A model generated the notes under the pieces. The model searched no databases. It was given only the letters and a program-made list of their open reading frames with translations, and was not told the DNA's origin. Positions 9,598-23,138 of a stretch of 64,000 bases of DNA are shown here, piece after piece. The position numbers and the translations under genes were made by a program. How positions within the stretch are numbered: position 1 is the first letter of the stretch; the number at the start of each line of letters is the position of its first letter. Origin of the DNA: Tepidanaerobacter syntrophicus (GTDB taxonomy: Bacteria > Bacillota > Thermosediminibacteria > Thermosediminibacterales > Tepidanaerobacteraceae); assembly GCF_001485475.2 (NCBI RefSeq), contig NZ_DF977001.1, positions 1-64,000 of the forward strand, in the 5' to 3' direction.

Positions 9598-11397
9598 TTA
9601 TGCGCTTGCAAAAACCTCTAAGAATTCATTTTCCTTTAACTTTTCTTTTTCAAGCAGTGCTTGGGCTACTTTATGAAGTTTGTTGACATTGTCTGACAAA
9701 AGTGACCTAGCTCTGTCATAACAGCTGCTGATAATATTTTTAACTTCTTTGTCGATAGATGCTGCCACTTCTTCGCTGTAGTTTCTGCCTTGTGCAATAT
9801 CTCTTCCCAGAAATACTTCTTCCTGCTTATGGCCCAGTGTCATTGGGCCTATATTTTCGCTCATGCCATACTCCATAACCATTTTTCTTGCAATCTGAGT
9901 TGCCCGCTCTAAATCATTTTGGGCACCGGTGCTTATTTCATTGAGCACTAGCTCTTCTGAAACACGGCCGCCAAGTAAATGGGTTATTTGGTCCATGAGT
10001 TCATTTTTACCCATAAAGAAGCGATCTTCTTTCGGCAAAATCATAGTATATCCGCCTGCTCTGCCCCTAGGCACTATAGATACTTCATGAACCGGGTCTA
10101 CAGTCGGCAGTAAATGTGCCACTACAGCATGTCCCGCCTCATGATAGGCAACCAATCGGCGCTCTCGTTCTGTCATAACTCGGCTTTTCTTTTCCGGCCC
10201 TGCTATTACTCTAGTTATAGCCTCTTCTAGCTCCGGCATTTCTATTTTCTTTTTATTGCGCCTTGCTGAAAGAAGCGCTGCTTCATTCATCAGGTTTTCA
10301 AGATCAGCACCGGTAAATCCGGGCGTCCTTCTGGCCAGTACTGAAAGCTCTACATCTTCTGCTAAAGGCTTGTTTCTTGCATGAACCTTGAGTATTTCTT
10401 CTCTTCCTTTTACATCAGGTCTGTCTACCACAACTTCTCTGTCAAACCTGCCAGGTCTTAAAAGCGCAGGATCTAATATATCGGGGCGGTTAGTAGCAGC
10501 TATAACTATTATGCCCTCATTAATACCGAAACCGTCCATTTCTACAAGCAGCTGGTTTAGCGTCTGTTCTCTTTCATCATGTCCACCGCCAAGACCTGCT
10601 CCTCTTTGGCGGCCCACTGCATCGATTTCATCAATAAATATGATACACGGCGCATTCTTTTTAGCTTGGTCAAACAAGTCCCTGACCCTTGCTGCACCAA
10701 CACCTACAAACATTTCCACAAAGTCCGAGCCGCTTATTGTAAAAAACGGTACCCCGGCTTCCCCTGCTACAGCTCTTGCTAAAAGTGTTTTTCCTGTTCC
10801 CGGAGGGCCTACCAGTAAAACTCCCTTGGGAATGCGCGCCCCCAGCTCTATAAATTTCTTGGGATGTTTTAAAAACTCCACTACTTCTTCTAATTCTTCT
10901 TTTGCTTCATCTACGCCTGCCACATCTTTAAAAGTCACTCTTCTTTTATCGTCTGTATGAAGCTTTGCCTTACTCTTGCCGAAAGACATCACTCGTCCAC
11001 CACCGCCTTGGCTCTGCTGCATTAAGAAATACCATGCGCCAAATATAAATACCATGAGCAGTAGAGGGGACAAAATTTGCGTCCACCAAGGCGTAACAGG
11101 CTTAGGCTCTGAATCCACCGTCAATGCGCCGCTTCCGGCAAGCTTATCTATTTTAGCCATAAAAGTAGTCAGATCAGGAACATAGCTTACAAAATTTCTA
11201 CCATCTTTTAGAGTGCCTTTGATGTTATTTTCTATTATCACTATTTTTTCCACTTCACCTTTGTCAAGGCGTTGAAGTAATTCTGAATATCCTAATCTGA
11301 TCTGAGCTGCTTCCTGGTTAGAATACCATTGGACAACTGATAAAATTAAAATTATTATCAGCAAATAAAAACTTAGACTCCTAAAAAAGTTGTTCAA
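9598..11397 (-). CDS. ftsH: ATP-dependent zinc metalloprotease FtsH
   Basis: A 599-residue membrane AAA+ protease degrading misfolded and regulatory membrane or cytosolic proteins. TM1 spans residues ~7-22 and TM2 ~105-126, with an extracytoplasmic domain between. The AAA domain has Walker A GPPGTGKT (197-204) and Walker [11 protein letters not shown] (~251-260). The Zn-protease motif HEAGH is at 419-423. Length is within the family's normal 600-650. The start is TTG 11397 with AGGGAGGAAAA upstream. The order tilS-hpt-ftsH is the usual Firmicutes arrangement. Confidence 0.97.
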
Positions 11398-11434
11398 AAA
11401 TTTTCCTCCCTTCTTGCACCACTAGACCAAACAC

Positions 11435-11463
11435 ATTTTACCACATAAATTACATTTTTACAA
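11435..11463 (-). promoter_or_regulatory. Candidate sigma-A promoter for ftsH
   Basis: On the minus strand: TTGTAA, 17-nt spacer, TAAAAT, about 35 nt before the ftsH ribosome site. Four of six bases match at -35 and five of six at -10. It would allow ftsH expression independent of hpt. Confidence 0.45.
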
Positions 11464-11512
11464 TTATGCAAAATTTCTAATGCACCTCTTGATAATAATT
11501 TTCTTTATTACT

Positions 11513-12055
11513 TTATCCTTTGTAGATTTCAGGCTTTAACACGCAAATATCTCGTAAATTCCTATATTTTCCGGCATAGTCCAAACCATAGCCCACAACA
11601 AAATCATCCGGAATTTCAAAACCTAAATAATCTATTTTCAAATCAACTTTTCTGCGATTTGGCTTGTCAAGCAGTGTACAGATTTTAAGGCTGGCAGGTT
11701 TACGGGACTTTAAGATTTTATGCATATAGCTTAGAGTCAGCCCTGAATCAACTATATCCTCGACTATTAAGACATCCTTTCCCTCCACGGATTCATCAAG
11801 ATCTTTAAGTATCCTAACGACTCCGGAAGATTCAGTGGATGTTCCATAGCTCGACACCGCCATAAAATCAATTTTTAAAGGCAGCTCTATAGAGCGAATA
11901 AGGTCTGACATGAAAACTACAGCGCCCTTTAGCACCCCTATTACGATAAAATTATCGCTATCCTTATAATCGTTGGTTATTTTTTCTCCCAGTTCCTTTA
12001 CTTTTTCTAAAAGCTGCTCCTCTGTTATTAAAACTTGCTTTACATCATTGAGCAA
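11513..12055 (-). CDS. hpt: Hypoxanthine phosphoribosyltransferase
   Basis: A 180-residue purine salvage enzyme converting hypoxanthine or guanine plus PRPP to IMP or GMP. The PRPP-binding signature VLIVEDIVDSG lies at residues ~95-105, and the YGTSTESSG flexible loop at ~70-78. Length is normal for the family. The start is TTG 12055, preceded by AGGAGG with a 6-nt gap. It lies between tilS and ftsH, the standard Firmicutes order. Confidence 0.96.
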   Translation of the reverse strand: MLNDVKQVLITEEQLLEKVKELGEKITNDYKDSDNFIVIGVLKGAVVFMSDLIRSIELPLKIDFMAVSSYGTSTESSGVVRILKDLDESVEGKDVLIVEDIVDSGLTLSYMHKILKSRKPASLKICTLLDKPNRRKVDLKIDYLGFEIPDDFVVGYGLDYAGKYRNLRDICVLKPEIYKG

Positions 12056-12126
12056 GGCTATCCTCCTATTCGCTGCTTATTTTAAGATTTACAAATCAAT
12101 TAGCATTTATTTTACCACAATGCCTA

Positions 12127-13545
12127 TTACCTATCAAGTATATCAAAATTTCCTTCATTTATTATTCTTAAACGCAAAACTTTTTTTGTTTTGTCATCCA
12201 GTTTAAACCTATCATCAATTCTCATTCCTGCAACCCAAATGATATTACCGCAAGATTCTACTATTGGGATTTTATTTCTCTTTCTTCGAGGAATTTTTTC
12301 ATCAATAAAAAACTCCTTTATTTTTTTAAAACCATCAGCACCTAAAGGTTTAAATTTGTCGCCGGCTCTTCTGTTTCTTACAATCAGATTGCAGTTTCCC
12401 ACTTTATCAAAATCAAGGTATGCGGTGTTTGGGTCAATAGGCATATTAAAATTAGGATCGGGCGGTATAATATCGGCTTCTATCGTAACTCCACTTTCGG
12501 CTATAACAACCTTGCCCGGAACGGAAAGCTCATAAATATAATCAGGAACATCCGTATCTTTGCCGTCAGCATACAGCACAAATCGGCCATATTCTTTAAT
12601 GCCTATAATGCCTTTGGGCAAGTCTATTATTTTGCCTGTTTCGGATTCTTCTATAAATTTAACCAGAAGCGCTGTGTGTTTTTCTTCAAAATCCTTTGTG
12701 TCTCCGGCAATTTTTTCTATTGCAAATCTTGCTACGTAGTATTTTATAGCTTCATGCAAATTTAAAAACTTCCCTATGTTTATTATAACGCAAAAGGGTT
12801 CAAAGTCTAGTACGTCTCTTGAAGCTTTTTGAGCCTCTTCCTTTATAAACGAAAGGTCTCGACGCGCTATTTCGGAAAGGCGGCGAAGGGATTTCCCCAG
12901 ATGAGGACAGTATTTTTGTTCAATCAGAGGCATTAATTCAAGGCGAATACTGTTTCTAAAATAATCAGTCGTAAGATTTGTTGAATCTATTCTAAAAGGG
13001 ATATTATTCTGATTTAGGTATTCTTCGATTTCTTCTCTCGGGATTTCAATAAGGGGTCTTATATAGAAATCTCGAACAGGCTCGATGCCCAGTAGGCCTT
13101 CTAAACCGCTGCCTCTTAAAATATTCATAAGTATAGTCTCTTCATGATCGTCTCTGTTATGGCCGGTAGCTATTTTATCTGCTTTTATTTCACTTCTTAC
13201 ACGTTTAAAAAAATCGTATCTGACACGTCTTGCCGCATCTTCCATAGAAAGTCCCTTGGCTGAGGCATAAGAAGGAACGTCAAGCCTTTCGGTAAAAAGC
13301 TCAATATTCCAGGATTTACATAATTTTTCTACAAACTCTGCATCTTGTCCTGATTCATCGCCTCGTATCATATGATCCAAATGGGCTGCATATACATAAA
13401 TATTAAGTTCTCCTTGGAGTGTGACTAAAAGATGTAAAAGACAGACAGAATCAGGCCCTCCAGATACTCCGGCAATAATCTTGTCTCCTTTTTGAATCAT
13501 ATTGTATTTTTTAAGCGTTGAAAGAAAAATTTCATTTACATTCAT
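12127..13545 (-). CDS. tilS: tRNA(Ile)-lysidine synthetase
   Basis: A 472-residue N-type ATP pyrophosphatase that converts C34 of the CAU-anticodon tRNA-Ile2 to lysidine. The PP-loop SGGPDS is at residues 28-33; GHNRDDHEETILMN follows in the catalytic domain, and the C-terminal TilS domain includes RNRRAGDKFKPLG. Length is typical. RBS AAGGAAG precedes ATG 13545. It is 72 bp upstream of hpt and directly downstream of a tRNA-gene terminator, so it probably has its own promoter or read-through from the tRNAs. Confidence 0.95.
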   Translation of the reverse strand: MNVNEIFLSTLKKYNMIQKGDKIIAGVSGGPDSVCLLHLLVTLQGELNIYVYAAHLDHMIRGDESGQDAEFVEKLCKSWNIELFTERLDVPSYASAKGLSMEDAARRVRYDFFKRVRSEIKADKIATGHNRDDHEETILMNILRGSGLEGLLGIEPVRDFYIRPLIEIPREEIEEYLNQNNIPFRIDSTNLTTDYFRNSIRLELMPLIEQKYCPHLGKSLRRLSEIARRDLSFIKEEAQKASRDVLDFEPFCVIINIGKFLNLHEAIKYYVARFAIEKIAGDTKDFEEKHTALLVKFIEESETGKIIDLPKGIIGIKEYGRFVLYADGKDTDVPDYIYELSVPGKVVIAESGVTIEADIIPPDPNFNMPIDPNTAYLDFDKVGNCNLIVRNRRAGDKFKPLGADGFKKIKEFFIDEKIPRRKRNKIPIVESCGNIIWVAGMRIDDRFKLDDKTKKVLRLRIINEGNFDILDR

Positions 13546-13580
13546 TTTAAGTCTTCCTTAAGATTTTAACATTATTAAAT

Positions 13581-13602
13581 AAAAAAAGCCGCATTTTGCG
13601 AC
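13581..13602 (-). terminator. Intrinsic terminator after tRNA-Glu
   Basis: On the minus strand: a 6-bp stem GTCGCA/TGCGGC with a 3-base loop, followed by seven T. It lies just downstream of tRNA-Glu and before tilS. Confidence 0.75.
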
Positions 13603-13618
13603 TTGTTATTTTGCAGCT

Positions 13619-13693
13619 TGGTGACCCCGAGGGGATTCGAACCCCTGATACCGCCGTGAAAGGGCGATGTCTTAACCACTTGACCACGGGGCC
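13619..13693 (-). tRNA. tRNA-Glu (TTC)
   Basis: Cloverleaf on the minus strand with acceptor GGCCCCG/CGGGGTC, anticodon loop CTTTCAC (TTC), T-loop GGTTCGAATCC and an encoded CCA end. Confidence 0.95.
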
Positions 13694-13697
13694 TTTT

Positions 13698-13774
13698 TGG
13701 TAGCGGCGCAGGGATTTGAACCCCGGACACTGCGGGTATGAACCGCATGCTCTAGCCACCTGAGCTACGCCGCC
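13698..13774 (-). tRNA. tRNA-Met (CAT), elongator
   Basis: Cloverleaf with acceptor GGCGGCG/CGCCGCT, anticodon loop TTCATAC and encoded CCA. The body resembles the Bacillus elongator tRNA-Met, so tRNA-Ile2 (also CAT) is less likely. It is 4 bp from tRNA-Glu, so they are probably co-transcribed. Confidence 0.9.
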
Positions 13775-13795
13775 ATGTAAGATATTTGCATATTT

Positions 13796-13872
<77 letters not shown>

Positions 13873-13950
13873 TCATTTATATAATATCGTAAATGCCAAG
13901 CTATTTTATTTTACAACAAAAAGTCGAATCCGTCAAGCCAAATCGTTTTG

Positions 13951-13979
13951 TTGAAATAGACAGAAATCTCTGCTATAAT
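13951..13979 (+). promoter_or_regulatory. Sigma-A promoter for the glycosyltransferase operon
   Basis: TTGAAA, 17-nt spacer, TATAAT: a near-consensus pair about 95 bp before the glycosyltransferase start. Confidence 0.75.
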
Positions 13980-14074
13980 GAATTATAAAGTCTGATATTG
14001 CTTATCTTTATGAATAATTGTTTCATGGAGCAAGGTGGTATTTTATGGCTTAGAATTTTAAGGAAGTGGTATTA

Positions 14075-15256
14075 ATGAATATCGTTATTTTGAGCACTTA
14101 TCCCCCTAGAGAATGCGGGATAGCTTCTTTCTCTAAGGACCTTAGGGACAATCTTGTATCTATCGATGAAAATGTCAGCATCATCGCCATAACAGACGCA
14201 AAAAATTCCTACGATTATCCCAAAGAGGTTATTTTTGAGGTAAGTCAAGATGAAAAAGAAAGCTTTCGGGAGGCAGCAGATTTTGTAAATCAATCTTCGG
14301 CAGATGTTGTCATAATCCAGCATGAATACGGTATATTCGGAGGCGATGACGGCAGCTATGTCCTTGAATTTGCAAATCATCTTAAAAAACCATTTGTAGT
14401 TACTACTCACACAGTGCTTTTGGAGCCAACTTTTGGTCAAAAAAATGTGCTTTCTCGGTTAGGAGCTGCAGCAAACGGAATTGTGTGTATGACAAAAAGA
14501 TCCGCAAAGCTTTTGAGTAAAGTTTACAGCGTCCCTGAACATAAAATACGCGTAATCCCTCATGGCGTTCCATTTTTTGAACCTAAAGGCAGGGATGAAT
14601 TAAAGCAAAAATACGGATATACCGGAAGAACAATAGTTTCAACCTTTGGCCTTATAGGTCCGGGTAAAGGCATTGAAAATTGCATAAAAGCAATTTCCGA
14701 ACTTGTACCGCATCATCCGGATATTCTTTACTTAGTTCTCGGCAAAACACATCCGAATATTATAAAAAAATATGGGGAATCTTATAGGGCTTCGCTTGTA
14801 AGCTTAGTAGAAGAATTAGGATTAACCGACAATGTAAAATTTATAAATGAATTCCTCTCACTAGATAAGTTGGGAGATTATCTTTACATGACTGATGTGT
14901 ATGTAACGCCATATCCCAACAAAAATCAGGCTGTAAGCGGCACGCTAACTTATGCGGTAGGATGTGGAAGGGCAATAGTATCTACGCCTTATGAATATGC
15001 TCTTGAAATATTGGGCGATGGAAGAGGGCTTATTGCTCAAAATAGTGATGACCCTAAAGAACTTGCTTTTTTAATAGAAAAAATTATTAACGATCCCGCC
15101 TTGAAACAATCCTTGGAAAATAAGGCGCAAGAATTGGGTAAAAAAATGAGTTGGAATAATGTCGCAAAGTTATATAGGAGCTTTTTAGAAGAACTCATCG
15201 CTTTTGCTGATTCCAAGATAAAAGAGGTGGTGTCTGATGAAAGAAGTCTCCTATAA
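14075..15256 (+). CDS. GT4-family glycosyltransferase
   Basis: About 393 residues with a GT-B fold. The N-terminal Rossmann start NIVILSTYPPRECGIASF is typical of GT4 (glycosyltransferase family 1 in Pfam terms). The donor-site region has FGLIGPGKGIE (near residue 195) and a C-terminal VSGTLTYAVGCGRAIVSTPY in place of the usual ExxxxxxxE motif. No signal or TM segment is seen, so it is cytoplasmic. ATG 14075 is preferred because AAGGAA sits about 10 nt upstream; a GTG at 14066 is too close to it. The next gene overlaps it by 20 bp, and the GT/GH130 fusion converges from the other side, suggesting one pathway. Confidence 0.85.
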   Translation: MNIVILSTYPPRECGIASFSKDLRDNLVSIDENVSIIAITDAKNSYDYPKEVIFEVSQDEKESFREAADFVNQSSADVVIIQHEYGIFGGDDGSYVLEFANHLKKPFVVTTHTVLLEPTFGQKNVLSRLGAAANGIVCMTKRSAKLLSKVYSVPEHKIRVIPHGVPFFEPKGRDELKQKYGYTGRTIVSTFGLIGPGKGIENCIKAISELVPHHPDILYLVLGKTHPNIIKKYGESYRASLVSLVEELGLTDNVKFINEFLSLDKLGDYLYMTDVYVTPYPNKNQAVSGTLTYAVGCGRAIVSTPYEYALEILGDGRGLIAQNSDDPKELAFLIEKIINDPALKQSLENKAQELGKKMSWNNVAKLYRSFLEELIAFADSKIKEVVSDERSLL

Positions 15257-16295
15257 ACATTTGGAGAAAATGACGGATAATACCGGAATAATACAATTTG
15301 CAAAATATGATAATCCTATAAAGGAAAGCGGATACACCGTCGATGACAATGCACGGGCTTTGATTGTGGCTTTAAACGCTGATAAAGGCATGAAAGACCT
15401 GGCTAAGATTTACATTGAATTTATAAAAAGTGCTCAAAGGCCTGACGGCACTTTTGCAAATCTAAAGCTGGATGAAAATTTCGTTCCTGACATTGATTCT
15501 GAAGACAGTATTGGAAGGGCTTTTATGGCTTGTTGTTACGCATTCTGTAATAAAAACTCTTCTTCGGAAATTAAAGAAACCGCGCAAGGTATCATCAAAA
15601 AGACCTTACCTGTCATAGAAAACTTTAAAAGTCTGAGAGCCATAGCATATTCTCTTATAGGGCTTGCCTCGCTTTTAGGAAATGGTTTTGAAGATGTGCA
15701 AAGCACAGACGACATTTACAAAATAGCCGGTGATATGGCAGAGCGATTAAACAATGCCTATACAGCAAACCACAGTGATAACTGGCAGTGGTTTGAAGAA
15801 TACTTAACTTACTGCAATGCCGTTTTGCCTCATTCTTTGTTTCTTTATTATGCTGTTTCCGGAGATAAAAAATCCCTTAGGATCGCAGAAGAATCTTTGA
15901 ATTTTTTAACAGATGCCCTTTTTAAAAACGGTTATTTGTCAATTGTAGGAAATCAGGGATGGTGGCAAAAAGACGGCAGTATACCTACCTTTGATCAGCA
16001 GCCTGTTGATGCTGCATCTATCACCCTTGCATGTATTTGTGCTTATTTTGTAAAAGGTAAGAAAGAGCACTTGGATATGGCAAAACTTTCTTACAGATGG
16101 TACTGGGGAAAAAATGTAAATAGCTTGCAAGTATACAATGAAACTTCAGGCGGCTGTCATGATGCATTGACTTCCTGTGGTATAAATATGAATCAAGGAG
16201 CAGAAGCGCTAGTAAGTTTTCTGCTGACTCATCAAATATTGGAAAATATTTTAAACAACAATGCACAAGATACGGCAGAAATACCTGCTGTATAA
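15237..16295 (+). CDS. Alpha/alpha-barrel-like protein associated with glycosyltransferases
   Basis: A 352-residue soluble protein. I do not recognise a characterised family. Repeated helix-pair features such as SGYTVDDNARALIVAL (near residue 23), EDSIGRAFMACCYA (near 90), NWQWFEEYLTYCNAVLPHSL (near 185) and HDALTSCGINMNQGAEA (near 315) suggest a six-hairpin (alpha/alpha) toroid, as found in glycosidases, epimerases and phosphorylase-associated proteins. The start is ATG 15237, inside the end of the GT4 gene with an AAAGAGGTGGTG site. Translational coupling implies it acts with the GT4, perhaps on the same glycan. Asp, Glu and Trp residues in these motifs could form a sugar site. Confidence 0.65.
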   Translation: MKEVSYKHLEKMTDNTGIIQFAKYDNPIKESGYTVDDNARALIVALNADKGMKDLAKIYIEFIKSAQRPDGTFANLKLDENFVPDIDSEDSIGRAFMACCYAFCNKNSSSEIKETAQGIIKKTLPVIENFKSLRAIAYSLIGLASLLGNGFEDVQSTDDIYKIAGDMAERLNNAYTANHSDNWQWFEEYLTYCNAVLPHSLFLYYAVSGDKKSLRIAEESLNFLTDALFKNGYLSIVGNQGWWQKDGSIPTFDQQPVDAASITLACICAYFVKGKKEHLDMAKLSYRWYWGKNVNSLQVYNETSGGCHDALTSCGINMNQGAEALVSFLLTHQILENILNNNAQDTAEIPAV

Positions 16296-16296
16296 A

Positions 16297-16325
16297 AAGA
16301 GAGGGTAGAATCCCTCTCTTTGTTT
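16297..16325. terminator. Bidirectional terminator between convergent genes
   Basis: AAGAGAGGG/CCCTCTCTT stem with a 6-base loop, A-rich before and T-rich after. It separates the forward barrel-protein gene from the leftward GT/GH130 gene. Confidence 0.85.
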
Positions 16326-16326
16326 C

Positions 16327-19300
16327 TTATCTTTTTTCGGTTTTTTGTCTTATTTCATAGGGTATTAAATCCCCAATTTTCCCGAACGCAGCGCAAAGAT
16401 ACGTATCCGCTGCCCCATAATACACTAAAATTTCATCATCTGCTTCCAGTATCTCTCTGTCGCTTACAGGAACTGCACCGCAGGTAAAAACTACATTCGG
16501 AACCCACGATGTTGATTTGTCCCCCACTTCATAATGCATCTGTGGAGAAAGAATAGGGTTTGGAGACCTGTACAGAAGTCTTGACGGATTATCAAGTTCA
16601 ACTAATGCTGCACCCAGCCTGTAGACCAAATTGTCATCGACTCCATGATATATCAGAAGCCACCCGTATTTTGTCTTTATAGGTTGGGCACCTGCACCGA
16701 TTTTCATGGAATCCCACATCATTCCTGTCCGAGGTCCCATAATTATCTTATGCCCGTCTTTCGGCCAGGGAAATTTAAGCTCTTCAGAATATGAAACCCA
16801 TATGCTAGGCTCAATTCTATGATAGAGTATATACTGATCGTTGATTTTTTCGGGAAAGATAACTGCATCTTTATTCCATATATTTGGAAAAGCAAGGCCT
16901 AATCTTTCCCATTTACTAAAATCTCTTTTTAAAAAGTCTGTGATGCCAATACAAGCGGCGGCTATTTGAGCTACTACTCCATCATAAGCGGTATAAAACA
17001 TATAAATTTTGTCTCCCATTATAACTGTCCTGGGATCTTCGCAACCTTTTTTCTCTTGCGGAGTTTGCGGGAAAAAAATAGGTTCCGGAAGTCTTTCTAA
17101 GATATTGCAGCCATCAGATACAGCCATTCCAATCCTAGAAATATTATCATCGCCAAAAGCTCTGTAAAGTATGAATACCTTGTTTTCTATTTTGAGAGCT
17201 GCAGCATTGAGCACATATTTAGACTCCCACGGATGATCATGGATAGGCCGCAATATGGGATTGCCTTCATATCGCACAAGGCTTCCTGCGGGAGGCCAAT
17301 TTTCTATATCTTGAACTACAACAGCATCATTAAAGGGTTTTATTTTTAAAAGGATATTTGCAATATCGTAACTTTCTTTTCCTTCTCCCATAAGTTGAAA
17401 CACTACCTCCATGATTTCTTCTTCACTGTATCCCATGTATTTACATAGTTCTACCAAAAGTTCATTATTGAACCAGTTTCGTTCTACATGAATTGAAAGA
17501 GGTGCTGGTACTCCTTTGCCGCCTTTAAAGCTATAGCTCGCCCAGCTCCATGCTGAGCAAGGTATAAAAGTTCCGTCTTCTAGGGTAAATGAGAGATTGT
17601 ATCCTTCTGCCATTAAGTAGATTGCTTCAGCTTCAGTTTTCATTCCCATATCTTCGAGTTTTTTCCCTAAAATTTTTAATCGTGCTACAAATTCTTTTTG
17701 ATGCCAGTTTTCAAATATATTGTGAGCCGAGAAAATATCTTTGCCGTGGTGTCCTATAATAGAATTAATTACTTTGATACCAAAATTTCTTCGTTCTCTT
17801 GCATATAGCCTCCAGATATAAGCATAGTGTTCCGCTTCTATAGCACTTTTAATTATATGGGTAAAATAAAGAAGTTTTGGATATCTACCCCCCATTCCTT
17901 TTGCAAGCGTTGATATTATAATAACGCCTGTAATTTTATTTAGTGCACTTATATTGCTCATGCTCGCTATATTGGGGAATTTATTTTTACCAACTACAAT
18001 CCTCTCTATTTCCACTTCTTCCATATTATCCGGCCTGAGATTATCCTCCAGCCATAAATTTATCCTGTCTACATAGGCTCTCTCCTCGCTTATAAACGCC
18101 AAAGCCATGGCTTTTCGGGGTGTCACAGCATCTAAAAGTTCCCCTATGCTCGTATAACCCATTGCTACCAAAAGATTCGAAGGAATAAACTCACATAACA
18201 GCTTCTCTAATATTTCTTCTTTTACCGCCATAACTTTGCCGCAAGGCATCATCTCAAACATTTTATCAACTGATTCTTTTGTTCCCTTCAACGTGTGAAG
18301 ATCGCCTGCAAACAGTAAATTTGCGGTTTTTTCAAGTTGTGCTACAAGTTCACTTATCCCTGCAACTATTTCTTTAGAATCAGCATCTCTTGGAATGTGC
18401 AGTTTATTATATATAAAATCGTAAAAAGCAGCAGTGTATTTTTTCTTAATTTCATTAAATATTCCATTCGTCCACACTACTTGTCCGTTTAAACTTGTCA
18501 GTTGCTTCGGAAGCACAATTGGCACACCAGGGATAAATTCTAAATAATCTAATGGCACAATTGGAGGCGCTTTTTCCTCTGATTTACTAACCCAGTTTTT
18601 TGTAAAAGAACTTTTTAATTTTAAAAATGCCTTTGTTTGAGACGTCTCAAAATCTATTATTTTTTTGTAGGCAAGATTTTCTATATCCTCAGGGTTCGCA
18701 TTGTCAAAACGTCTCTTGAAATTATTTATCTGTTTTATGTATCCTGCTACAGCACCTTCATACGCCACCATAAATGCAGATAAAATATCTTCTTTTGATA
18801 TTTCTTCAGAAAAACAATATGCTTCTAAAAAACGATAAGTGAACGTCGCCCACAGTTCCTCATCCAATATAAAACTTTCATAGGAAAGATTATAAACTTC
18901 CTCTGCCGAAGATGCAAGTTCTTTTGGCAGCAGTTTTTTATAAATTAACCCATATTTTTCATAATCAGACTTAAATATGCTTACAAAATCTGTAAATTTA
19001 TAGTATGCTTTTTTCGGCACATCTTCGTTTGCTGTAAATCGCAACAACTTATCAGGAAATTTTAAGATATCATTATGGTTTAACCAATAATCCTGATCAG
19101 CAATGATACATTCCCAAAAAGATCTGGTAATCTCTTTAAACAGAAAAAGTATTTTTTGCATTGACGAAGGAGATAGTGTAGCTCCTAAATCTACCTCGCA
19201 AATTTTTTTATCCCATACCACTGCGCGAGTTACAAGCCAAGGATCTATTCCATATCCGCCTATATAGCTGAGCCAATGGGATGCTTCCATACAGTAATCC

Positions 19301-19902
19301 TCTACAAGGTCATGAGCTATCCCGTATAAACCTGATAAAGGATCATATAGATTATATCCGTATATTGTTTCAAGTAATGGTCTTACCAGCAAAGTACCTG
19401 TGGTATTTTCAAAATAGTGTCTTTTAAATTTTGCAAAAACCGCATCATAGCCTTGGGTAATAGGATATATAAGTTGTTCTATCCAAGAGTGGGAAAATCC
19501 CTCTCCATTTTCACTTACCATATCTGCCTTTAGAATTATGGCATCGGCTTCAAGCTGTTTTGCTATCTCTAAAATGGTCATTATGCTAAAGCCTCTGCCG
19601 TTTATACCCGGATCTAATATAAAGGATATATTTGGCGTTTTTAATTTTGTGCTTCTTATAATTTCTAAGGCATCGCTTCCTGCAGGATCCCCGATGCAAA
19701 CTATTAGTTTTTTTAGGTTTGGAAACGCTTCAAGTCCCTCGTCTACTGTTTTTAAGATAGATTCAATTGTATCTTTTTCATTATAAAATGGAATCCCTAC
19801 AACTAAATCTGCATAACTCATATCTTGCATAGCATTTAGAATTTCGTCTACCTTTTTACGGAATTCATCTCCTTTTTCAACTACATTTTCATTTACGCTC
19901 AA
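16327..19902 (-). CDS. GT-A glycosyltransferase + GH130 phosphorylase-like fusion protein
   Basis: A 1191-residue protein with two recognisable ends. Residues ~30-330 are a GT-A domain (VVGIPFYNEKDTIESIL at ~34-50, a KADM in the DxD position, TGTLLVRPLLETIYG, DPLSGLYG) resembling GT81 glucosyl-3-phosphoglycerate synthases. Residues ~870-1185 are a five-bladed GH130 domain: YEGNPILRP opening, catalytic-type GCEDPR near ~952, and an IGAGAQPIKTKYGWLLIYHG segment. GH130 enzymes phosphorolyse or hydrolyse beta-mannosides. The ~500-residue helical middle (with a GHHGKD motif near ~719) is unassigned. The start is TTG 19902 with GAGG 8 nt upstream. No TM or signal peptide. Convergent with a GT4/barrel operon, so probably in the same glycan pathway. 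Confidence 0.8.
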   Translation of the reverse strand: MSVNENVVEKGDEFRKKVDEILNAMQDMSYADLVVGIPFYNEKDTIESILKTVDEGLEAFPNLKKLIVCIGDPAGSDALEIIRSTKLKTPNISFILDPGINGRGFSIMTILEIAKQLEADAIILKADMVSENGEGFSHSWIEQLIYPITQGYDAVFAKFKRHYFENTTGTLLVRPLLETIYGYNLYDPLSGLYGIAHDLVEDYCMEASHWLSYIGGYGIDPWLVTRAVVWDKKICEVDLGATLSPSSMQKILFLFKEITRSFWECIIADQDYWLNHNDILKFPDKLLRFTANEDVPKKAYYKFTDFVSIFKSDYEKYGLIYKKLLPKELASSAEEVYNLSYESFILDEELWATFTYRFLEAYCFSEEISKEDILSAFMVAYEGAVAGYIKQINNFKRRFDNANPEDIENLAYKKIIDFETSQTKAFLKLKSSFTKNWVSKSEEKAPPIVPLDYLEFIPGVPIVLPKQLTSLNGQVVWTNGIFNEIKKKYTAAFYDFIYNKLHIPRDADSKEIVAGISELVAQLEKTANLLFAGDLHTLKGTKESVDKMFEMMPCGKVMAVKEEILEKLLCEFIPSNLLVAMGYTSIGELLDAVTPRKAMALAFISEERAYVDRINLWLEDNLRPDNMEEVEIERIVVGKNKFPNIASMSNISALNKITGVIIISTLAKGMGGRYPKLLYFTHIIKSAIEAEHYAYIWRLYARERRNFGIKVINSIIGHHGKDIFSAHNIFENWHQKEFVARLKILGKKLEDMGMKTEAEAIYLMAEGYNLSFTLEDGTFIPCSAWSWASYSFKGGKGVPAPLSIHVERNWFNNELLVELCKYMGYSEEEIMEVVFQLMGEGKESYDIANILLKIKPFNDAVVVQDIENWPPAGSLVRYEGNPILRPIHDHPWESKYVLNAAALKIENKVFILYRAFGDDNISRIGMAVSDGCNILERLPEPIFFPQTPQEKKGCEDPRTVIMGDKIYMFYTAYDGVVAQIAAACIGITDFLKRDFSKWERLGLAFPNIWNKDAVIFPEKINDQYILYHRIEPSIWVSYSEELKFPWPKDGHKIIMGPRTGMMWDSMKIGAGAQPIKTKYGWLLIYHGVDDNLVYRLGAALVELDNPSRLLYRSPNPILSPQMHYEVGDKSTSWVPNVVFTCGAVPVSDREILEADDEILVYYGAADTYLCAAFGKIGDLIPYEIRQKTEKR

Positions 19903-20021
19903 ATTGGAAACCTCATTTCTTTTTAGTTATTAATAATATTATTTTAAGAATATCATAAAGTATAAAAAAGATGTATACTTAATATATTGCAAAATTACGA
20001 ATTAAATAGGGGGTAAAAATT

Positions 20022-21215
20022 TTGGGCATAGATTGGCTTTTGGAGGCCGATAAAATAAGTAAGGATATTGTAGCTATCAGAAGATATCTTCACATGAATC
20101 CGGAATTAGGATTTGAGGAGCATCTTACCAGCGAATTTGTAGAAAAAACACTTCATGATATAGGTATTAAAACAAAAAGGGTAGCAGGCACCGGCATTAT
20201 TGGCATTTTAACAGGAAAAGATTTAGGGAAAACGGTTGGGCTAAGAGCAGACATGGATGCCTTACCTTTAAATGATGGAAAGAACGTGGAGTATGCTTCA
20301 AAAGTAAAAGGAAAAATGCACGCCTGCGGTCATGACGCTCATACTGCCGGACTTTTGGGAGCGGCTATGCTTCTGGCAAAGCACCGGGAAAGCTTTATCG
20401 GACAGGTGAAATTCCTTTTTCAGCCTGCAGAAGAAACCACCGGCGGTGCACTGCCTATGATAAAAGAAGGAGCTATGGAAAATCCTAAAGTCAATGCAGT
20501 TTTTGGATTACACTGTAACGCGGGGCTTAATACAGGAAAAATTGGCGTGATTTACGGAAAGGCTTACGCCTCATCAGATATGTTTGATATAAAGATAAAG
20601 GGTAAAAGCTGCCATGGCGCAAGCCCCCAATTCGGAATCGATGCTATAGCAGTAGGAGCTCAGGTAATTAACTGCCTGCAGAGTATTGTAAGTCGCAGTA
20701 TAGATCCACTGGATTCTGCTGTTATAACAGTCGGAAAATTTAATGGCGGTTATCAAAGAAATATTATAGCAGATGCTGCAAATCTTTCAGGAATAATAAG
20801 GACATTAGAGCCTGAGACTCGCAAAAAAATCAGGAATAATTTTGCTAAAATGGTAAATAAGATCTGTGAGGCTTACGGGGCCCAGGCTGATATTAATATA
20901 GTAGAAAGCTATCCCGCCCTTGTAAATGATGACAAAATGGTGGATCTAGTCAGGGCCGCAGCCTCTAAGCTCATTGGAGAGCAAAATGTAGTTGTGGTTT
21001 CTAAACCGGGCATGGGGGTGGAAGACTTTGCGTATTTTCTAAAAGAAGCACCTGGGGCCTTTTTTCAGCTGGGAGTAAGAAACGAAGCAAAAGGAATAGT
21101 GCATCCTGCCCACAGCAACCTGTTCGATATTGATGAAGATGCGCTGCCTCTTGCTTCAGCAGTTTTGGCAAATATAGCTTTTGAATATTTAATGGGAAAT
21201 CTAAACAGAAGTTAG
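20022..21215 (+). CDS. M20-family amidohydrolase (N-acyl-amino acid/hippurate hydrolase type)
   Basis: A 397-residue metallohydrolase. The first metal ligands appear in ADMDALPL (~76-83) and HACGHDAHTAG (~102-112), the catalytic Glu in QPAEETTGG (~137-145), and further ligands in GLHCNAG (~163) and the C-terminal VHPAHSNLFDID. The central lid contains the usual CHGASP motif. Enzymes of this family remove acyl groups from amino acids or peptides. The start is TTG 20022, with AGGGGG upstream; no ATG is nearby. Its stop lies 5 bp from the stop of the convergent dehydrogenase gene. Confidence 0.88.
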   Translation: MGIDWLLEADKISKDIVAIRRYLHMNPELGFEEHLTSEFVEKTLHDIGIKTKRVAGTGIIGILTGKDLGKTVGLRADMDALPLNDGKNVEYASKVKGKMHACGHDAHTAGLLGAAMLLAKHRESFIGQVKFLFQPAEETTGGALPMIKEGAMENPKVNAVFGLHCNAGLNTGKIGVIYGKAYASSDMFDIKIKGKSCHGASPQFGIDAIAVGAQVINCLQSIVSRSIDPLDSAVITVGKFNGGYQRNIIADAANLSGIIRTLEPETRKKIRNNFAKMVNKICEAYGAQADINIVESYPALVNDDKMVDLVRAAASKLIGEQNVVVVSKPGMGVEDFAYFLKEAPGAFFQLGVRNEAKGIVHPAHSNLFDIDEDALPLASAVLANIAFEYLMGNLNRS

Positions 21216-21220
21216 CTCTG

Positions 21221-22099
21221 CTATATGTAATATTTAAAAAGTGCTTGTGTGCCGCTGTCCTCTTCTCCTTTTTCCGCTAATTCTTCATATAGAGAAAGCG
21301 CAAGTTTTAAGCCGGGGGTTTTAAGTCCCATTTCTTCTGCAGATTCTAAGGCAATTTTCATATCTTTGATAAAATGCTTTATGTAAAAACCAGGTCGAAA
21401 ATCTCCATCCAGCATTCTGGGTGCTAAATTGCTCAAAGACCAGCTGCCTGCAGCTCCTGATTCTATACTTTTTAAAACCAGTTTCGGATCAAGGCCTGCC
21501 TTTTTTGCATAAGCCATAGCTTCACAAACTCCTATCATATTAGAGGCAATTGCGATTTGATTACTCATTTTGGTATGCTGGCCTGCCCCGGCTTTTCCCT
21601 GCAGCACTATATTTTTACCCATTGCTTCAAAAATAGGCTTAACTTCTTCAAACGCCTCTCTATCTCCTCCAACCATGATAGAAAGGGTTGCCTCTCTTGC
21701 TCCCACATCCCCACCTGAAACCGGTGCATCTAAGGCATATAAACCCCGTGCTTTAGCCTCTTCATAAATTTCCATGGCAAGTTTCGGACTTGAAGTCGTC
21801 ATATCTATCAAATAAGAGCCTTTTTTCGCATTTTCTATTACTCGACCTTCTCCAAGATATAATTCTCTTACATCTTTGGGATATCCTACCATTGTTATTA
21901 TTACATCGGCTTCCTTTGCAATTTCTGCAGGACTGTCTTTCCATGCTGCGCCAAGTTCAATTAATTCTTGAGCTTTTGATTTTGTCCGGTTATATACTAA
22001 AAGCTCATACCCTGCTTTAATTAAATTTTTTGCCATGCTTTTCCCCATTACGCCTGTTCCTATAAAACCTATTATTGTATTTTCTTTGCTTATCGGCAT
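21221..22099 (-). CDS. Beta-hydroxyacid dehydrogenase (3-hydroxyisobutyrate / tartronate semialdehyde reductase family)
   Basis: A 292-residue NAD(P)-dependent enzyme. Rossmann motif GFIGTGVMGKSMAKNL at ~11-26, substrate-binding motif DAPVSGGDVGA at ~123-133, and catalytic lysine in GAGQHTKMSNQ at ~168-178. This family reduces tartronate semialdehyde, succinate semialdehyde or methylmalonate semialdehyde, or oxidises 3-hydroxyisobutyrate; the exact substrate is not readable. TAAGGAGG precedes ATG 22099. It is transcribed after the TIGR04076 gene with a 19-bp gap. Confidence 0.88.
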   Translation of the reverse strand: MPISKENTIIGFIGTGVMGKSMAKNLIKAGYELLVYNRTKSKAQELIELGAAWKDSPAEIAKEADVIITMVGYPKDVRELYLGEGRVIENAKKGSYLIDMTTSSPKLAMEIYEEAKARGLYALDAPVSGGDVGAREATLSIMVGGDREAFEEVKPIFEAMGKNIVLQGKAGAGQHTKMSNQIAIASNMIGVCEAMAYAKKAGLDPKLVLKSIESGAAGSWSLSNLAPRMLDGDFRPGFYIKHFIKDMKIALESAEEMGLKTPGLKLALSLYEELAEKGEEDSGTQALFKYYI

Positions 22100-22118
22100 A
22101 ATTACAGCCTCCTTATAA

Positions 22119-22442
22119 TTATTTTTTTGACTTATATTTTTCTGCAGGCATTACTTCATAAAGAACTGTGCCACCGGGTGTATAAGGCGGGCCCGGATCC
22201 ACACATTGCCACAGGCGGCCGTCAATTCCAAGTTTTTCAAAGTCAGTTCCCAGACGGCACGCAAAAACTACAGGCATGATATTTGTGAGGGCATAAGCGC
22301 AAATATTATCGGATTTTTCTTTAACAATATTTGCTCCGGAAAAATAAAGTACATCGCCAACTTTTATTCCTGCTGCACAATTTCCTCGAACTTCCCGTAC
22401 AACAGCAATCACGTCGCGAGAAATTTTAGCAACGCTTTCCAC
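22119..22442 (-). CDS. TIGR04076-family small protein
   Basis: About 107 residues. The conserved pattern of the family is visible: a G-C-x-A-G-I-K-V-G-D segment, an ICAYALTNIMPVVFACRLG helix, and a C-terminal WQCVDPGPPYTPGG. Its three cysteines could bind a metal. No function is established for the family. GTG 22442 has GGAG 9 nt upstream; GTG 22451 is the longer option but overlaps the ribosome site. It heads a two-gene unit with the hydroxyacid dehydrogenase. Confidence 0.65.
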   Translation of the reverse strand: MESVAKISRDVIAVVREVRGNCAAGIKVGDVLYFSGANIVKEKSDNICAYALTNIMPVVFACRLGTDFEKLGIDGRLWQCVDPGPPYTPGGTVLYEVMPAEKYKSKK

Positions 22443-22590
22443 CGCCTTCACTCTCCTTTACCAGCAAGTTTTCTTGAGCTATTAGATTTCAAATATATAA
22501 TATCATTGCTTTGGCTATCATATATTCAATTCTATAACTATGTTTAAAATTCCTTCATTGTATTTTATGAAAAAAATTTTTGAAACCCTA

Positions 22591-22619
22591 TTGACAAACT
22601 CTAAAAAATATGTTATATA
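22591..22619 (+). promoter_or_regulatory. Sigma-A promoter of hsp20
   Basis: TTGACA, 17-nt spacer, TATATA. The CIRCE operator starts 11 bp after the -10 hexamer. Confidence 0.85.
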
Positions 22620-22629
22620 AAAAATAGAA

Positions 22630-22656
22630 TTAGCACTCGGGAGTTGAGAGTGCTAA
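22630..22656 (+). promoter_or_regulatory. CIRCE operator (HrcA binding site)
   Basis: Perfect TTAGCACTC, 9-nt spacer, GAGTGCTAA inverted repeat covering the transcription start region of hsp20. This is the known HrcA repressor operator of class I heat-shock genes in Firmicutes; its use on an hsp20 gene is seen in a number of Clostridia. Confidence 0.95.
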
Positions 22657-22688
22657 CAAAAAAATTATAAGTAAAGGAGCTGATGTAT

Positions 22689-23138
22689 ATGGCAGGATTA
22701 GTTCCTTTCAACAGAAGAACACCTGATATTTTAAGTGATCCTTTTGATGATATAACCAATGTGTTAGATGACTTCTTTGCTGATGTGTGGCCCTTCAGAA
22801 GGAGCCTTGTAGCTGATACTTTCAAAATTGACGTTTTAGAAGACGATAAAAACTACTATATTAAAGCAGAACTTCCCGGTGTAAAGAAAGAGGAAGTCAA
22901 TGTAACAGTAGATGAAGGCAGAATCCAGATTTCAGTAAATAAAGAAGAAAACGTAGAAGAGGAAGGCAAGAACTATATCCACAGAGAGAGACGCCAAACC
23001 TCGATGCAGCGCAACATCTTCTTGGCAGATGCTAAAGATGAAGGCGTAGTTGCGAAACTGGAAAACGGTATTTTAACTGTAACCGTTCCTAAGAAAGAGC
23101 AAACAGGAAAAGCAGTGCCAATTGAGATCGAAGGTTAA
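22689..23138 (+). CDS. Hsp20/alpha-crystallin small heat-shock protein
   Basis: About 149 residues. The N-terminus AGLVPFNRRTPD is followed by an alpha-crystallin domain (FKIDVLEDDKNYYIKAELPG to KLENGILTVTVPKKE), ending with the ELENGVLTI-like strand and an IxI-type tail (AVPIEIEG). An ATP-independent holdase chaperone. ATG 22689 lies 9 nt after AAGGAG; ATG 22683 is only 3 nt away and less likely. Expression should be HrcA-repressed through CIRCE, and a terminator directly follows. Confidence 0.95.
   Translation: MAGLVPFNRRTPDILSDPFDDITNVLDDFFADVWPFRRSLVADTFKIDVLEDDKNYYIKAELPGVKKEEVNVTVDEGRIQISVNKEENVEEEGKNYIHRERRQTSMQRNIFLADAKDEGVVAKLENGILTVTVPKKEQTGKAVPIEIEG

Follow-up and report, generated by a model that had tools for sequence, protein, structure and literature searches.

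A mannosylglycerate-synthase-like/GH130 fusion protein and two partner genes in Tepidanaerobacter syntrophicus: a candidate intracellular beta-1,2-mannoside module

Near the start of contig NZ_DF977001.1 of the thermophilic anaerobe Tepidanaerobacter syntrophicus, a 1191-residue protein with a glycosyltransferase (GT)-like domain and a phosphorylase-like domain on one chain converges on a pair of overlapping genes, raising the question of which glycan the three products might make or turn over, and whether they do so together. The window, that is, the whole stretch of DNA analysed, comprises 64,000 nucleotides, and the locus contains the following features.

13951..13979, plus strand: candidate sigma-70-type promoter of the GT4–BAR pair, TTGAAA-17-TATAAT with extended -10 (consensus scan)
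14075..15256, plus strand: GT4 glycosyltransferase, 393 residues (open reading frame; ATG start with a GGAAG-type ribosome site in front)
15237..16295, plus strand: (alpha/alpha)-barrel protein, BAR, 352 residues (open reading frame; 20-nucleotide overlap with GT4)
16296..16321, plus strand: likely terminator, a hairpin of 10-bp stem lying between the converging transcripts (terminator scan and sequence)
16327..19902, minus strand: fusion of GT78-like, orphan middle and GH130 domains, 1191 residues (open reading frame with TTG start; AF2 model)
16345..17292, minus strand: GH130 five-bladed propeller of the beta-1,2-mannoside phosphorylase type, residues 871–1186 (PF04041, 7fip, 9fj8)
16870..16872, minus strand: K1011, in the place of the beta-1,2-specificity lysine (NKDA/NKD motif; invariant in 71 sequences)
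17035..17037, minus strand: D956, in the place of the putative GH130 catalytic acid (E955-D956; invariant in 71 sequences)
17299..18582, minus strand: orphan middle domain, residues 441–868 (conserved; no Pfam family)
18598..19806, minus strand: mannosylglycerate-synthase-like GT-A glycosyltransferase with helical C-terminal part, residues 33–435 (2bo7 fold match and profile alignment)
19522..19530, minus strand: K125-A-D127, in place of D100-A-D102 (DXD) of mannosylglycerate synthase (alignment with the verified synthase sequence)

The open reading frames confirm the layout described in an earlier sequence-only reading, namely a GT4 gene, an overlapping barrel gene and a convergent gene for the 1191-residue protein. 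The putative promoter matches 11 of 12 consensus positions and is the best in the region, in a scan whose total number of hits equals the shuffled level. Hydropathy gave no membrane span or signal peptide in the locus proteins, BAR included.

The fusion is a real protein family and not a chance joining, because full-length relatives, with 37–69% identity across about 1190 residues, occur in dozens of genomes. It is present in 38 of 299 genomes of the phylum, and every full-length relative found carries the GT domain and GH130 on one chain. The AF2 model of the 1191-residue protein has a pLDDT of 90.4 and a pTM of 0.84.

The C-terminal domain is the most readily identified. PF04041 matches residues 896–1178 with 172.3 bits against a cut-off of 26 (E-value 1.6e-50), bearing out the complete-looking GH130 domain noticed earlier; 7fip is a sequence match at 2.4e-60, and the five-bladed propeller superimposes on 9fj8 with Z 42.0 and an r.m.s.d. 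of 1.4 Å over 287 aligned residues. By both sequence and fold, its nearest relatives are beta-1,2-mannobiose and oligomannan phosphorylases (Teth514_1788/1789). The acid motif E955-D956, counterpart of Glu141-Asp142 of BT3780 (PMC4599007), is present, so that the Asp on which the shared-pathway idea partly hinged is in place; it is invariant in 71 relatives together with N899, R914, K1011, H1028, R1029, H1086 and D1166, and K1067 is found in 69 of the 71. By motif and spacing, N899, R914, E955, D956 and D1166 correspond to N74, R89, E141, D142 and D363 of BT3780 (PMC4599007). K1011, corresponding to Lys199 of BT3780, lies in an NKDA motif as in Teth514_1788 and Teth514_1789 (NKD in Uhgb_MS). 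The domain has the basic phosphate-binding residues and not the paired Glu of GH130 hydrolases: H1028, R1029, K1067 and H1086 line up with basic positions in two phosphorylases that have been characterised, the comparison being with these enzymes and not directly with BT3780.

The N-terminal domain had been labelled GT81-like, which is only roughly right. Residues 33–435, a larger domain than had been noted, match mannosylglycerate synthase (MGS, GT78; 2bo7) over the GT-A fold and the C-terminal helical part with Z 33.6, 3.0 Å and 352 aligned residues at 14–16% identity, and a profile alignment with MGS gives the same register. Foldseek scored MGS at 2.2e-11 versus 4.7e-7 for GpgS (GT81), and the NCBIfam GpgS model matched the fusion at an E-value of 0.24. 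Relative to the Rhodothermus marinus enzyme, the window protein keeps E11, R131, D192 and the second Asp of the DXD motif and has a basic residue where K76 stands, but it does not keep D100, T139 or H217. K125-A-D127 stands in place of the Asp-X-Asp motif, S244 in place of the metal-binding His, and G169 in place of Thr139, which contacts the acceptor carboxylate. Among relatives, D127 is retained in 45 of 50, with position 125 occupied by E (19), A (17), S (6) or K (3); His217 is mostly lost across the fusion family, and most members have G, A, S or N at the Thr139 position, whereas stand-alone cousins of the GT domain retain the first DXD Asp, His217 and Thr139. E42, R103, D127, R161 (aligned with MGS R131) and D220 are strongly retained, and the distant members in rows F40 and F45 have EAD and the His. 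Since the first DXD Asp, His217 and Thr139 are missing, the domain may be inactive or act on other substrates, and the competence implied for it by the sequence-only reading is unsupported as written.

Between the two enzyme-like domains, the stretch put earlier at some 500 unassigned residues does exist, at a size of about 430 (441–868), since the GT domain spans about 33–435. Pfam gave no family for it, and a PDB profile search returned chance matches only (E ≥ 0.28). Structure comparison of the fusion brought no match to this part either, an absence that does not speak for a new fold. It is found only within fusion reading frames (38 of 299 genomes), with conserved residues such as E455, P458, G672, W785, G795, P799 and E807, and its mean column identity is 55% versus 41% for the GT domain.

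The first of the facing genes belongs to GT4 by PF00534 (4.7e-16; 59.3 bits, cut-off 26.4) and PF13439 (35.8 bits, cut-off 28.5), and its best PDB sequence relative is 3oka, a GDP-mannose-dependent alpha-(1-6)-phosphatidylinositol monomannoside mannosyltransferase (1.1e-7). For BAR itself, no family of Pfam or NCBIfam scored above its cut-off. The guess that it is an alpha/alpha-barrel proved correct: its AF2 model (mean pLDDT 93.1) best matches Yersinia pestis YPO2471 (7tem; Z 38.9, 2.3 Å, 326 aligned), also a profile match at 1.3e-15, and AGE epimerases and GH76 follow at Z of about 24–29. YPO2471 is annotated as a putative exported protein, in contrast to BAR with its lack of a signal peptide, and no paper on it was found in the literature searched. 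An AGE epimerase role was rejected for want of the catalytic His pair: in an alignment of 46 BAR sequences, no His stands at an invariant or almost invariant position. The GH76 model PF03663 matches 5 of the 46 weakly, and the GH76 DD pair would be expected at about the site of E89-D90 of BAR, an approximate placement that does not rest on coordinates.

The three genes are conserved together. BAR occurs in 33 of the 38 fusion genomes versus 35 of 261 others (p = 8e-20), and 66 of 68 BAR genomes also have a GH130 or fusion match. GT4 and BAR are often adjacent in relatives, adjoin the fusion in several arrangements and are joined into one gene in at least 8 of 72 scored loci, with a natural GT4–BAR fusion in Pelotomaculum-type loci (L087); both sister Tepidanaerobacter genomes hold two complete paralogous sets with matching divergence. 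In 21 of the 72 loci neither gene lies near the fusion, some of these being at contig ends and some having full flanks (L080, L122, L142). Joint conservation, joint duplication and partial fusion thus leave the suggested shared pathway standing. Of 80 loci, 42 have a gene for mannose-1-phosphate guanylyltransferase or phosphomannomutase no more than 10 kb away, the neighbours including ManC (39), PMM (35) and a GT4–PMI fusion (18), and operons lacking the fusion run GH130, mannose-1-phosphate guanylyltransferase-like, GT4, BAR and in some cases PMM. ManC-like and PMM-like genes also occur in the genome of the window, neither of them adjoining the locus. The link to mannose, offered originally as inference, gains support from these neighbours in relatives, from the beta-1,2 Lys and from the MGS-like fold.

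The giant enzyme and the two genes found alongside it across many relatives suggest that mannose chains are made and recycled inside the cell by a pathway not recognised before. The reading preferred here, with a probability of roughly 0.55, is that the locus is an intracellular module for beta-1,2-mannoside synthesis and recycling that works on GDP-mannose and mannose 1-phosphate. The GH130 domain would reversibly exchange phosphate and beta-1,2-linked mannose (chain plus phosphate giving a shorter chain and alpha-mannose 1-phosphate); the GT domain of the GDP-mannose type that shares its chain, probably together with GT4, would start or build the mannoside from GDP-mannose; BAR, a near-constant companion of GH130 genes, would trim or remodel the glycan; and ManC, whose gene lies away from the locus here and beside it in many relatives, would return the released mannose 1-phosphate to GDP-mannose. 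The fold and residues of GH130, the fold of the GT domain, the linkage of the genes and the presence of GDP-mannose genes are observed; the direction of flux, the parts given to GT4 and BAR and the nature of the product are the conjectural elements of this scheme. Counting against it are the residues lost from the GT domain, the distance of ManC and PMM from the locus in this genome and the loci with neither GT4 nor BAR nearby. The earlier interpretation is partly supported: the GH130 acid, the co-conservation and the mannose link find support, and the GT81 label, the size of the unassigned stretch and the implied competence of the GT-A domain are unsupported as written.

The GT domain could instead be a degenerate pseudo-enzyme that binds a nucleotide sugar and serves to regulate or anchor GH130, leaving GT4, GH130 and BAR as the catalysts. 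Loss of the first DXD Asp and His217 while the second Asp, E42, R103 and D220 are kept would suit this, as would the lower conservation of the domain relative to the middle one; the strong retention of R161 along with D127, R103, D220 and E42, and the distant members with EAD and His, argue against it, and it is considered unlikely. A compatible-solute pathway, in which GDP-mannose and a small acid are combined by the GT78-like domain into an anion resembling mannosylglycerate, to be capped or recycled by GH130, draws on MGS being the top fold match and on the R161–R131 alignment. Several of the fusion hosts are thermophiles, judged by genus, which fits such a role, but mesophilic syntrophs are also among them. 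The Thr139 and His217 positions are altered in most of the family, and MGS makes alpha-mannosides whereas GH130 acts on beta-mannosides; this pathway is judged improbable. A search of six genomes for MGS gave no match but, run without a positive control, is uninformative.

Equally improbable is salvage only, whereby imported beta-1,2-oligomannan would be phosphorolysed, its mannose 1-phosphate feeding GDP-mannose synthesis, and the glycosyltransferases would serve an unrelated glycan. Chiku et al. proposed salvage for Thermoanaerobacter (PMC4264767), where a GH130 pair, a guanylyltransferase, a GT4 and an ABC importer share a cluster (PMC4264767). Here, no importer was found among the window neighbours at 11000–23000, and none was recognised among the recurrent neighbour families read in relatives (part of the clusters annotated); moreover, no full-length relative was found in which GH130 is separate from the GT domain.

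The beta-1,2-mannoside module also invites comparison with the Leishmania mannogen enzymes (GT108, MTP), GH130-related five-bladed propellers that turn over beta-1,2-mannan via alpha-Man-1-P or GDP-Man (PMC8950772). Against the window's GH130 domain, 6q50 and 6q4y score Z 23.1 and 22.4; the Leishmania enzymes are single-domain and eukaryotic, whereas the window domain is clearly GH130 (9fj8, Z 42). Tentatively, and with more doubt than confidence, the fusion might be a bacterial counterpart of that system, with a beta-1,2-mannan phosphorylase and a builder dependent on GDP-mannose on one chain, a previously undescribed domain family coupling the two, and would replace glycogen in a group of anaerobes with many syntrophs among them. 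For glycogen synthase in the window's own genome, a GlgA search gave only sub-threshold GT4 matches (GlgC, GlgB and glycogen phosphorylase were outside the search), which favours the preferred reading; counting against that reading, one search of the open literature on Tepidanaerobacter and mannan found no account of a beta-mannan. If the preferred reading is right, a cycle based on mannose, for storage or as solute, would be conserved in anaerobic bacteria, many of them syntrophs of methane-forming communities, and BAR and the middle domain of about 430 residues, both uncharacterised families, would find a home. Synthase-like and phosphorylase domains on one chain could also serve as a beta-mannoside catalyst.

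The module is perhaps best read as a rebuilt version of the Teth514_1785–1789 part of the Thermoanaerobacter sp. X-514 cluster Teth514_1785–1796, which encodes GH130 (1788/1789), a guanylyltransferase (1787), a GT4 (1786) and a hypothetical protein (1785) (PMC4264767). The two share a beta-1,2-type GH130, GDP-mannose supply and a GT4, but in X-514 the GH130 proteins stand alone and an ABC importer lies in the cluster, whereas in the window GH130 is fused to the GT78-like and orphan domains and the neighbourhood has no importer. In Thermoanaerobacter the natural role of the GH130 beta-1,2-mannoside phosphorylases is so far only a proposal, and the preferred reading, if right, would give these enzymes a testable physiological role. 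A genome with a GH130 pair 82–84% identical to Teth514_1788/1789 has guanylyltransferase-like, GT4 and BAR genes elsewhere in that order, and by this gene order Teth514_1785 may be BAR.

The locus comprises a 1191-residue fusion protein and, facing it, overlapping genes for a GT4 glycosyltransferase (393 residues) and an (α/α)-barrel protein (BAR). The open reading frames (ORFs) were found where the sequence-only reading had placed the three genes:

14075–15256, + strand, ORF for GT4
15237–16295, + strand, ORF for BAR (352 residues), overlapping GT4 by 20 nt
16327–19902, − strand, ORF for the fusion (1191 residues), converging on GT4/BAR
Fusion residues 871–1186, C-terminus, GH130 domain (family search)

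The 31-bp gap between BAR and the fusion contains a hairpin, a terminator-like sequence. Genes for tRNA-Glu and two tRNA-Met (13619–13872, − strand) lie immediately upstream of GT4.

The fusion is a genuine, conserved protein, present in 38 of the 299 genomes sampled from the phylum. An alignment-query scan of named genomes yielded 80 fusion loci, 72 with long ORFs (>1,100 residues), in Tepidanaerobacter, Thermosediminibacter, Fervidicola, Syntrophomonas, Pelotomaculum, Syntrophaceticus, Thermosyntropha and Mahella, and further in Chloroflexi/Dehalococcoidia, Deltaproteobacteria, one Bipolaricaulota and one Euryarchaeota MAG. The genome harbouring the window measures 2.43 Mb and has a relative in the same genus, Tepidanaerobacter sp. 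EBM-38.

The GH130 domain is closest, in sequence and fold (Z 42.0 and 41.7), to the β-1,2-mannobiose and β-1,2-oligomannan phosphorylases of Thermoanaerobacter. Its acid motif, E955-D956, and mannose-binding residues show no variation in 71 members, and the basic residues that align with those of the two phosphorylases are invariant except K1067, which differs in two. K1011, likewise invariant in the 71, occupies the place of a lysine that Cuskin et al. connect to β-1,2 linkages (PMC4599007). Together these residues argue strongly that the domain should be an active β-1,2-mannoside phosphorylase. A second, stand-alone GH130 is the first gene of the operon in nine Pelotomaculum-type loci (L085, L086, L087, L089, L090, L092, L099, L109 and L145); there Arg-Asn replaces the Lys-Asp of the β-1,2 motif (read in 6 of 9), so the stand-alone and fused enzymes may cut different linkages. 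At L164:6273-7343, an in-frame TGA breaks a GH130 gene adjoining GT4-BAR into two ORFs, which may reflect decay or a sequencing error.

The N-terminal domain had been taken as GT81-like; structure comparison places it closer to mannosylglycerate synthase (MGS) of Rhodothermus marinus. In the AlphaFold2 model of the fusion (mean pLDDT 90.4, pTM 0.84), residues 33–435, including a helical extension, match MGS (2bo7) with Z 33.6 over 352 residues at 3.0 Å and 14% identity (VIA-align). A pairwise profile alignment with the MGS sequence, identical to 2bo4, has the same register but is weak (E 0.0017 for a single comparison, probability 16%), and the modelled fold is therefore the main evidence. MGS residues E11, R131, D102 and D192 are retained as E42, R161, D127 and D220, and the position of K76 is held by R103; D100, H217 and T139, by contrast, are replaced by K125, S244 and G169. 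The domain thus has an MGS-like fold but, on the residues tested, falls outside GT78, and its activity may be changed or lost. The MGS residues compared are those discussed in PMC2581804. In other genomes, stand-alone MGS-like glycosyltransferases of about 440 residues (L156:7311-8696, L157:852-2153 and L158:2868-4190) have Thr, DSD and His intact, with no GH130 or BAR adjoining in the stretches read.

The middle domain (residues 441–868) has no Pfam family and no PDB sequence match (best E 0.28), and is better conserved than the glycosyltransferase domain (mean column identity 55% versus 41%). Across the 299 genomes it was seen only within fusion ORFs, save for shorter ORFs at contig ends.

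The top match of the BAR model (mean pLDDT 93.1) is the uncharacterised Yersinia pestis protein YPO2471 (7tem; Z 38.9, profile E 1.3e-15), followed by cellobiose epimerases and GH76 mannanases (Z about 24–29). An AGE epimerase was ruled out because no His is conserved; the invariant acids D36, D37, D90, D253, D309 and E323 suggest a glycosidase-type enzyme.

BAR occurs in 33 of 38 fusion-bearing genomes versus 35 of 261 fusion-free ones (Fisher 8e-20), and among the 68 genomes with BAR, 66 also match GH130 or the fusion (p 1e-34), both values ignoring relatedness of genomes; the two exceptions are incomplete (78% and 81%). Beside the fusion, GT4 and BAR take several arrangements: opposed, co-directional or fused. 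Among 72 loci, the pair lies downstream and opposed in at least 26, upstream as a single GT4-BAR ORF in at least 8, upstream and co-directional in at least 4 and otherwise in at least 1, lower bounds because a few pairs missing a start codon were scored among the loci with one partner (12) or none (21, several truncated). In sister Tepidanaerobacter genomes the complete set is present twice, and within each set the three members have diverged in parallel (fusion/GT4/BAR about 69/70/65% and 49/56/52% identical to those of the window). Over 34 loci, the pairwise identities for one protein track those for the other two (correlations of 0.76 to 0.86), a pattern that shared species history by itself could also produce.

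Beyond the observed folds, residues and gene linkage, we infer flux, product and the roles of GT4 and BAR as follows. GDP-mannose would be made from mannose 1-phosphate; the MGS-like domain, GT4 or both would transfer mannose onto a starter; GH130 would reversibly lengthen or shorten β-1,2-mannosides with mannose 1-phosphate/phosphate; and BAR would remodel them. Such a cycle would be closed, conserving glycosidic-bond energy during breakdown. No glycogen synthase scored above cut-off in the window genome, which fits, weakly, a substitute reserve.

Within 10 kb of the fusion, 42 of 80 loci carry mannose-1-phosphate guanylyltransferase (ManC, 39) or phosphomannomutase (PMM, 35), and 18 carry GT4 joined to a mannose-6-phosphate isomerase (PMI) cupin. 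This GT4–cupin (type II) fusion is seen at L106:13522-14877 and 22 more loci of the neighbour cluster. ManC-like and PMM-like genes of the window genome lie away from the locus. Fusion-free genomes have operons of GH130, guanylyltransferase-like (best NCBIfam match, under its cut-off), GT4 and BAR genes, at times with PMM; in one, a 1097-residue ORF (L160:9251-12541) joins ManC, PMI cupin and PMM, nearly the whole GDP-mannose route in one chain.

GH130 together with GDP-mannose genes is a kind of system already known from Thermoanaerobacter. A genome with 82–84% homologues of Teth514_1788/1789 has guanylyltransferase-like–GT4–BAR at a second place, in agreement with the published order Teth514_1787-1786-1785 (PMC4264767). 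Searches of the open-access literature found no paper describing the fusion; as far as could be checked, it is new, as are its orphan middle domain and the association with BAR. A further observation, covering L165:5392-7335 and GH5-like genes in 8 of the 80 loci, is a glycosidase that weakly matches GH42 and recurs near the fusion; a relative adjoins the GH130 pair in a genome of the Thermoanaerobacter type, at the place taken by a GH5 gene in the published cluster (PMC4264767).
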